From positions 1 to 64,000 of the forward strand of contig CALVEY010000009.1 in assembly GCA_944326705.1 (NCBI GenBank): a DNA stretch of 64,000 nucleotides, written 5' to 3'. The stretch's first letter is position 1, and each line of letters opens with the position of its first letter. Positions 37,035 to 39,125 of this stretch are shown here, in pieces. Source of the stretch: an uncultured Mucispirillum sp. (lineage in GTDB: Bacteria > Chrysiogenota > Deferribacteres > Deferribacterales > Mucispirillaceae). Both the position numbers and the translations under genes were made by a program. The notes beneath the pieces are model-generated. The model ran no database searches, was not told the origin of the DNA, and saw nothing but the letters and a program-made list of their open reading frames with translations.

Positions 37035-39125
37035 ATGAAGAAGATTAGGATAATTTTTTACCTGCTAATAGCAATGTGCCTGTCTATAACAACTTATGCT
37101 AAAGCTGAAATGGGTGGATATGCCCATATAGATGGTGTAAACCAAATAGGGCTGGCAGACGCAGAAGAGCAGTTAAAAGGTAAAAAAGCAACATTTGTTG
37201 ATGTAAATTTTCAAGAAATGCGTGACAGTATAGGCTATATTAACGAAGCTATTTTTGTAATTGATAAAAACTGGCTGCAGACTTTACCTAAAGATAAAAA
37301 TACTACATTAATTTTTTATGGCTTAAACAGACTTTCTTATGAGCCAGGTGAAGCAGCATTACAAGCTATGCAGGCAGGTTACAAAAATTCATACGTGATG
37401 ATAGACGGTATTGAAGGCTGGATAACTTCAGGAAGGCCTGTTGTTAAAAACCAGATAGAAAACTGGAAGAGTGCGCAGAATATTGTAGAATTTACTGATG
37501 GTATACATAAAGATATTGTTTTTGGTGAAGTTCCTGCATGTCGTAATTGTCATGGAACATACGATAAAGATATAGACAGAAGCAATATTAAAATGGATAA
37601 TGCTGCTGATAAAATGCAGATAAACAGAAACTGTGTAAAATGCCATGATGATTTAGGCAACGCATTTGAAGGCAGCGTGCATGATGTAAATTATAAAGCA
37701 CTGCTTGACGGCACTCTGCTTTTTTACAATACACCAGAACCAGGTAAAAAAGCACAGCCATTATGTGTAGACTGTCACAAAACACACACAGCTACACTTA
37801 AAGGTGTTGAATCACCTAAAAAAGTCAGCTCAGAAAGCTGTGCACAATGCCACGAAGGTAAAGGCGTAACATACGAAGCCGACTTTCATGGTAAAATGAA
37901 TGTATTAAACACTGTTGGCGAAACACCAACAATTGCATCTTGTGCAGATTGTCACGGTGGCCACAATATATTTAAAAGTGATGACTTCCGCTCTACTCTG
38001 TCACTTAGCAACAGAATAGATACATGCGGAAAATGTCACGAAGGTTCTACAAAAAGCTTTGTTCAGTACATTGCACACGCAGACCATAGTGATAGAGAAA
38101 ATCACCCTGTATTATACTGGGTAAATATAGGTATGATGACATTAGTTATCGTAGTATTTATTTTCTTTGGTATACATACAATTTTATGGGCTATTCGTTT
38201 ATTCTTAGTTAAACGAGCAAACCCAGAAGCATGGAAAATAGCAATGGCTGCAGTTAAAAATGATAAGAAAGGCTTAAAAAGATTTTCACTGCTGCATAGA
38301 ATTCAGCACTTAGGCCTTGCAATATCATTTATGGGCTTATCACTTTCTGGTATGCCGCAGAAATTCTATGATGCACCATGGGCGCATGCAGTTGCAGATT
38401 TTATAGGTGGTCCTATTAATTCAACAGTGATTCACCACTGGTTTGCATTACTTTTAGGTCTGCTTTTTGCAACACATGTAATTGATGTAGTAACAAACCT
38501 GTGGAAAAAACGTGATGCTGTAAGAGATAAAGAAACAGGCAGACTTTCTGGCAGACTGTTTATAAAAGCAGCATTTGGTCCAGATTCTCTTATACCAAAC
38601 GCACAGGATTTTAGAGACATTAAAGCTAACTTTAAATGGTTCTTAGGAAAAGGCCCTAGACCAGTATTTGATAGATGGGCATATTGGGAAAAATTTGACT
38701 ACTTAGCAGAAATCTGGGGTACATTTGTATTTGGTATCACAGGCTTAATTCTGCTGTTCCCAGTGCAGGCCGCTGCAATACTGCCAGGCTCAGCTGTAAA
38801 TGTGGCAATTATATTCCACACTTACGAGGGTTTACTTGCGATGGCGTTTATTTTCTCCATCCACTTTTTTAACTCTCACTTCAGGCTGGATAAATTCCCT
38901 ATGGATATGGTTATCTTCCTTGGTAATGTTCCAGTTGAAGAAGCTCACCATGAAAGAGCTAAATGGGTTGAAAGGCTTAAAGCTGAAGGCAGGCTCAATG
39001 ATATGGTTGAAGATGAAAAACCAGGACTTCGCACATTTATTGCTAAGTTTATAGGTTTCTCATTAATGGCAATCGGCTTAGTATTGTTAGTGCTTATCTT
39101 AATAGCTTTAATACTAATGATATAG
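37035..39125 (+). CDS. Rhodanese-like / hexahaem cytochrome c / cytochrome b fusion, probable quinol dehydrogenase
   Basis: A 696-residue membrane protein with a signal peptide (ending TTYAKA). A rhodanese-like domain covers about residues 35-137: the end GYKNSYVMIDGIEGWITSGRPV is typical, but the catalytic Cys position holds Tyr (LIFYGLNR), so sulfur transfer by the usual route is unlikely. Six CXXCH haem sites follow (169, 200, 244, 269, 303, 331). Then comes a membrane cytochrome b with helices near 361-391, 420-440, 462-485, 560-582, 588-612 and 671-696 and His-rich motifs (LLHRIQHLG, IHHWFALL, IHFFNSHFR). It probably passes electrons from menaquinol to the reductase, replacing the MccCD module of other species. 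That role is inference from context. Confidence 0.8.
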   Translation: MKKIRIIFYLLIAMCLSITTYAKAEMGGYAHIDGVNQIGLADAEEQLKGKKATFVDVNFQEMRDSIGYINEAIFVIDKNWLQTLPKDKNTTLIFYGLNRLSYEPGEAALQAMQAGYKNSYVMIDGIEGWITSGRPVVKNQIENWKSAQNIVEFTDGIHKDIVFGEVPACRNCHGTYDKDIDRSNIKMDNAADKMQINRNCVKCHDDLGNAFEGSVHDVNYKALLDGTLLFYNTPEPGKKAQPLCVDCHKTHTATLKGVESPKKVSSESCAQCHEGKGVTYEADFHGKMNVLNTVGETPTIASCADCHGGHNIFKSDDFRSTLSLSNRIDTCGKCHEGSTKSFVQYIAHADHSDRENHPVLYWVNIGMMTLVIVVFIFFGIHTILWAIRLFLVKRANPEAWKIAMAAVKNDKKGLKRFSLLHRIQHLGLAISFMGLSLSGMPQKFYDAPWAHAVADFIGGPINSTVIHHWFALLLGLLFATHVIDVVTNLWKKRDAVRDKETGRLSGRLFIKAAFGPDSLIPNAQDFRDIKANFKWFLGKGPRPVFDRWAYWEKFDYLAEIWGTFVFGITGLILLFPVQAAAILPGSAVNVAIIFHTYEGLLAMAFIFSIHFFNSHFRLDKFPMDMVIFLGNVPVEEAHHERAKWVERLKAEGRLNDMVEDEKPGLRTFIAKFIGFSLMAIGLVLLVLILIALILMI

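Follow-up and report, generated by a model that had tools for sequence, protein, structure and literature searches.

A fusion of rhodanese-like, hexahaem cytochrome c and cytochrome b parts accompanies one clade of MccA sulfite reductases in Mucispirillum and Campylobacterota

We analysed a stretch of 64,000 nucleotides (the window) from an uncultured Mucispirillum sp. (assembly GCA_944326705.1, contig CALVEY010000009.1), in which a single gene codes for a rhodanese-like domain, a hexahaem cytochrome c and a cytochrome b (Table 1). Its reading frame (37035-39125) is open throughout from an ATG start, and the 696-residue product is predicted to be an exported membrane protein. The gene begins 90 bp downstream of an intact mccA gene. 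The fusion probably acts as a membrane quinol dehydrogenase dedicated to one distinct MccA clade (MccA-II), in which it would replace the MccC and MccD subunits; its rhodanese domain probably serves for docking or ligand binding.

The upstream gene encodes an MccA-type protein, for which six-electron sulfite reduction is predicted from its similarity to the solved Wolinella MccA (PDB 4rkm; E 5.7e-186 over residues 45-655, 50% identity). An earlier sequence-only reading of this DNA had placed the fusion gene behind mccA, which the spacing and the level of the 4rkm match confirm. The window MccA has seven CXXCH motifs and one atypical CX17CH motif. Its Cys380 and Cys459 are conserved and align with cysteines of 4rkm that we take to be the copper ligands of MccA. 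The atypical haem site has the form CX17CH (CX18CH in two proteins) in all 45 fusion-linked MccA proteins and CX15CH in the five Wolinella-type MccA proteins checked.

The same reading had proposed that the three parts form one polypeptide, and the reading frame, the PF00581 match, the motif count and the FdnI-type matches described below bear this out. A chance assembly or a frameshift artefact is ruled out by the intact reading frame and by the occurrence of the same plan in 46 proteins. The fusion is real and conserved across two phyla. Its central part has CXXCH motifs at residues 169, 200, 244, 269, 303 and 331, and each of the 46 homologues has six of them. Six more histidines outside these motifs (residues 158, 216, 251, 285, 310 and 348) are invariant in the same set. 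This pattern fits six bis-histidine electron-transfer haems without an open catalytic site. Assignment to the NapC/NrfH family was rejected, as PF03264 scores 17.4 bits against a gathering cut-off of 24.1.

The cytochrome b part spans from residue 358 to the C-terminus. Four invariant histidines (His425, His467, His595 and His610) align with His18, His57, His155 and His169 of Escherichia coli FdnI, which form the two pairs of b-haem ligands. The scores in this region are weak. The formate dehydrogenase N gamma profile (TIGR01583) matches the C-terminal part with E 3.4e-6, under its curated cut-off. PF01292 recognises 20 of 22 relatives and gives no match to the window protein itself at E 0.1. 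The best fold match of this part, 1kqf_C, has a probability of 1.00 but an E value of 4.8e-3, and comes from a full-length model with a mean predicted local distance difference test score (pLDDT) of 63.5. A membrane cytochrome b of the FdnI/PF01292 type is predicted. Compared with these proteins, the fusion has extra N- and C-terminal helices and fused c haems, its sequence similarity is low, and its electrons probably flow in the direction opposite to that in FdnI.

The N-terminal domain is clearly rhodanese-like, as had been proposed. The Pfam Rhodanese profile (PF00581) matches residues 42-130 with E 4.6e-6, exceeding the gathering score, and it also matches this domain in all 22 relatives tested. 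The domain is modelled with a mean pLDDT of 90.5, and the PDB structures that match this model best are rhodaneses, including GlpE (1gmx) and the Wolinella polysulfide-sulfur transferase Sud (1qxn). The sequence-only reading had put the catalytic cysteine position at Tyr95. This was off by one residue, as profile alignment with GlpE and 6mxv points to Gly96. The window protein thus shares the fold of these rhodaneses but has a glycine in place of the catalytic cysteine, in a periplasmic fusion to cytochromes. The proposed inactivity of the domain therefore fits the window protein but not the whole family: position 96 is Cys in 15 of the 46 homologues, Gly in 29, Ala in one and Ser in one. Asn98, in the same loop, is invariant.

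On the family tree, position 96 must have switched between Cys and another residue three times or more. The tree alone gives no direction to these changes, but they are read as losses because rhodaneses originally have the cysteine. Within Mucispirillum, all parts of the fusion are under purifying selection, with ratios of nonsynonymous to synonymous substitution rates of 0.13-0.18 for the rhodanese domain, 0.07-0.11 for the haem part and 0.03-0.06 for the membrane part. The rhodanese domain is thus kept despite its missing cysteine, if less strictly than the other parts. As most members lack the cysteine, the domain does not appear to be needed as a sulfurtransferase. Docking or anion binding next to MccA is the most likely role of a cysteine-less domain. 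Members that retain the cysteine might nonetheless act as sulfurtransferases.

We determined the distribution of the fusion in two ways. A scan of species genomes covered all phyla with two short peptide patterns derived from an MccA alignment, a design that may miss MccA relatives elsewhere. It yielded 27 MccA loci, which outside Mucispirillum fall into two groups, 63-70% and 45-47% identical to the window MccA. The fusion follows mccA in every member of the first group and in no member of the second. Whole-genome searches of 25 of the scanned genomes agree with this view of the loci, with the fusion present in 12 and absent from 13. Whole-genome searches were also performed on an even sample of 397 Campylobacterota genomes and on 51 Deferribacterota genomes. 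MccA is encoded in 96 of the Campylobacterota genomes, 41 times at 63-71% and 55 times at 47-51% identity to the window protein, with none between. The full-length fusion occurs in 41 of the 397, and these are the very genomes with a close MccA (at least 63%). None of the 55 genomes with the Wolinella-type MccA (47-51%) has the fusion.

The carriers include Mucispirillum and many Campylobacter and Helicobacter relatives. Among the Deferribacterota, three of the 51 genomes have both genes, and all three are Mucispirillum. In all 45 loci, the fusion gene is the neighbour of mccA on the same strand, separated from it by 17-90 bp. Full-length homologues that lack mccA, which would have spoken against the earlier reading, were not found; the sole exception is a genome of the Mucispirillum genus whose mccA is interrupted by an insertion sequence (IS). 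The pairwise divergences of MccA and the fusion correlate across the 45 loci (r 0.95), a value that linked vertical descent alone would also give. In Campylobacter gastrosuis, the mccA-fusion locus is found twice on one contig, approximately 211 kb apart (L058 and L059). No plasmid copy of the locus was found. In the MccA tree, the Mucispirillum proteins nest among those of Campylobacterota. A transfer from Campylobacterota to Mucispirillum is not established, as the approximately unbiased test (p 0.13) leaves the alternative standing, and the patchy distribution (3/51 Deferribacterota genomes) is its only support.

The fusion also stands where other organisms carry MccC and MccD, as the sequence-only reading had noted. 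In Sulfurospirillum cavolei, mccA is followed by genes for an FKBP isomerase, a 4Fe-4S protein and an NrfD protein, and then by a cytochrome c synthase gene; the Sulfurospirillum locus checked thus has MccB, MccC and MccD in the place that the fusion occupies in the fusion loci. Neither an MccC iron-sulfur (Fe-S) gene nor an MccD NrfD gene lies next to mccA in the window or in the fusion loci viewed. A search with Sulfurospirillum MccD (E up to 1e-15) returned nothing from the three Mucispirillum genomes or from many other fusion genomes. The remaining fusion genomes have only NrfD relatives, 33-43% identical to the query and encoded elsewhere in the genome. The MccACD systems of Wolinella succinogenes and Shewanella oneidensis (PMC8076601) likewise combine an octahaem MccA, membrane quinol dehydrogenase genes downstream of it and a cytochrome c synthase. 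They differ from the window in having Fe-S, NrfD and FKBP genes instead of one c/b fusion, and an MccA of the other clade, with CX15CH rather than CX17CH.

The identical 41-genome distribution, the constant adjacency and the replaced genes strongly support the earlier proposal of a one-piece quinol dehydrogenase that feeds the sulfite reductase. In such a system, menaquinol would be oxidised by the C-terminal dihaem cytochrome b, and the electrons would pass from the two b haems through the six periplasmic bis-histidine c haems to MccA, which would then reduce sulfite to sulfide. The fusion alone would do the job of MccC (Fe-S) and MccD (NrfD-like) in Wolinella-type systems, with the periplasmic rhodanese domain most likely kept as a docking or anion-binding module beside MccA. 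With a potential of about -116 mV, the sulfite/sulfide couple is slightly more negative than menaquinone (about -74 mV). The quinone site of FdnI is close to the cytoplasmic face of the membrane. Should the fusion be arranged in the same way, the membrane potential would help to push electrons outward. Alternatively, a lower potential may be supplied by methylmenaquinone, which has been suggested for sulfite respiration in Campylobacterota (PMC6682613).

The closest working analogue appears to be CbcL of Geobacter sulfurreducens, likened to the fusion by architecture rather than by sequence. In this single polypeptide, a periplasmic domain with nine haems is joined to a dihaem membrane domain of six helices; the protein has a quinol oxidoreductase role and is required for low-potential acceptors (PMC9129911, PMC6148476). 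In contrast to CbcL, the fusion homologues all have six c haems; moreover, CbcL has no reported rhodanese domain, and its acceptors are extracellular metals or electrodes (PMC9129911). The sequence-only reading knew of no described equivalent. This holds for the whole fusion in the open-access papers that we found, none of which describes, names or studies it, although these did not include the primary MccA papers (Kern 2011, Hermann 2015, Liu and Kelly 2015), where a mention is possible. It does not hold for the c/b part, for which CbcL is a functional equivalent. The fusion thus falls within categories that are already known, those of multihaem sulfite reductase systems and of c/b quinol dehydrogenases, and is not a categorically new system.

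Several points weigh against the role proposed for the fusion. The case for it is made from sequence comparison and models, and the quality of the full-length model does not suffice to read haem geometry from it or to build a complex. No solved structure matches the cytochrome b domain by sequence (E up to 1), and the haem b content is only a prediction because of the weak FdnI sequence score and the quality of that model. Genetic linkage indicates a shared pathway, not direct contact with MccA. In addition, in the single-contig Mucispirillum genome mentioned above (G041; L043:7719-10580), an IS3-like element lies in mccA, codons ~143-384 are lost and a 163-bp tandem duplication is present, but the fusion behind it is intact. 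This could reflect a role of the fusion without MccA or a recent loss of mccA.

The intact fusion of this genome also favours another view, that of a general quinol dehydrogenase, a CymA-like or CbcL-like hub for several periplasmic acceptors that merely travels with mccA. It is joined in this by rhodanese-free multihaem c/b fusions of another Deferribacterota family, which occur without MccA (G050, L004:835-2814; G049, L005) and are 35% identical to the window protein over 533 aligned positions. Nevertheless, no full-length fusion without an MccA-II gene was found in the 397 Campylobacterota genomes. A hub would also be expected to persist alone. Two Campylobacterota genomes, G209 and G301, have only fusion remnants, and in G301 (L138:7222-10577) mccA and the fusion have both decayed, which we count in favour of a dedicated MccA partner. 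We therefore regard a general hub as unlikely. Electrons might also run the other way, entering from a periplasmic donor through MccA-like haems so that the fusion reduces quinone, for instance in the oxidation of sulfur compounds. FdnI-type cytochromes b normally reduce quinone, and the fold match is to FdnI. However, the marks of a sulfite reductase, the pair of copper-ligand cysteines and the atypical haem site, are retained in the linked MccA proteins, and the Wolinella enzyme that has been characterised works in the direction of sulfite reduction (PMC8076601). Reverse flow is therefore quite improbable.

We give very little credence to the idea of a rhodanese domain with sulfurtransferase activity that would deliver sulfane sulfur to MccA or take it away, with the cytochrome part secondary. 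The Cys-bearing homologues are in line with it, 11 of the 15 having a second cysteine five residues further on, and rhodanese-like proteins accompany multihaem gene clusters in Geobacter (PMC6148476). However, 31 of the 46 homologues lack the cysteine, including all three Mucispirillum proteins and that of C. jejuni, and past residue 30 the window protein has no free cysteine except in its haem motifs.

The remaining features of the locus are collected in Table 1. The strong stem-loop after the fusion gene is shared by all three Mucispirillum genomes, and C. jejuni also has a stem-loop at that place. Judging from their families, the PCu(A)C chaperone probably serves the copper site of MccA and the CcsBA-type synthase probably equips both MccA and the fusion with haem. 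The 152-residue protein may belong to copper or haem assembly; it is 44% identical to its counterpart in Ca. Helicobacter avicola and 52% identical to the one beside the G301 relic. That relic is followed by genes for PCu(A)C, the 152-residue protein, an SCO protein and a thioredoxin-like protein, arranged as in Mucispirillum. Thioredoxin-like genes occupy the same place in many fusion loci, and C8J_0031 of C. jejuni is regarded as a thioredoxin for MccA biogenesis (PMC7089426); the fusion gene lies between it and mccA.

Table 1. Features of the mccA-fusion locus in the window.
Feature	Position	Strand	Basis
mccA, predicted octahaem sulfite reductase, 656 residues	34974..36944	+	match to 4rkm; alignment; motif check
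Fusion gene: rhodanese-like domain, hexahaem cytochrome c and cytochrome b, 696 residues	37035..39125	+	open reading frame; profiles; motifs
N-terminal hydrophobic segment, residues 1-24, putative signal peptide or anchor	37035..37106	+	hydropathy peak, residues 4-22
Rhodanese-like domain, residues 42-130	37158..37424	+	PF00581; model and PDB matches
Gly96 codon, aligned to catalytic Cys of GlpE and 6mxv	37320..37322	+	profile alignment; Cys in 15/46 homologues
Hexahaem cytochrome c region, residues 169-335, six CXXCH	37539..38039	+	motifs; PF14522, PF14537
Membrane cytochrome b region (predicted), residues 358-615	38106..38879	+	invariant His425, His467, His595 and His610 aligned to FdnI haem ligands
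C-terminal transmembrane helix (predicted), residues 665-695	39027..39119	+	model; hydropathy
Terminator-like stem-loop directly 3' of fusion gene	39150..39181	+	kept in three Mucispirillum genomes
PCu(A)C copper chaperone	39211..39639	+	PF04314, E 5.3e-33
152-residue protein, no Pfam match	39636..40094	+	conserved next to fusion in Ca. Helicobacter avicola and next to G301 relic
SCO1/SenC-type copper or thiol protein	40109..40696	+	PF02630, E 3.4e-31
Thioredoxin-like lipoprotein	40693..41253	+	PF13098
CcsBA-type cytochrome c synthase	41308..44166	+	PF01578, PF05140

Published work touches on these systems at a few points. C. jejuni 81116 makes the MccA protein (PMC5146829), and the main text of the Mucispirillum schaedleri genome paper leaves sulfite and octahaem enzymes unmentioned (PMC5285517). 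In C. jejuni 81-176, the genes CJJ81176_0063 to _0065, one of them annotated as cytochrome c family, are upregulated 6- to 32-fold in colonised chicks (PMC3749233). By gene order they may belong to the mcc locus.

If the fusion is indeed the quinol dehydrogenase of MccA-II, this would explain how the MccA enzymes of C. jejuni, Helicobacter and Mucispirillum obtain electrons without MccC and MccD. A bolder and more tentative proposal, which we hold possible, is that host-associated bacteria possess a respiratory sulfite reductase complex of a second type. It would consist of MccA-II and a one-piece c/b quinol dehydrogenase whose rhodanese fold has changed from a sulfurtransferase into a docking or sulfite-binding module, and quinol oxidation near the cytoplasmic side would let the membrane potential drive electrons to sulfite, a low-potential acceptor. 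The fusion family would also show in nature how a rhodanese fold, repeatedly without its cysteine, is retained in an electron-transfer protein. MccA enzymes would split into two systems, separable by sequence alone, with CX17CH or CX18CH versus CX15CH as a simple marker to tell them apart. As gut sulfite respiration yields sulfide, a gene marker for the MccA-II route would matter for gut sulfur metabolism.
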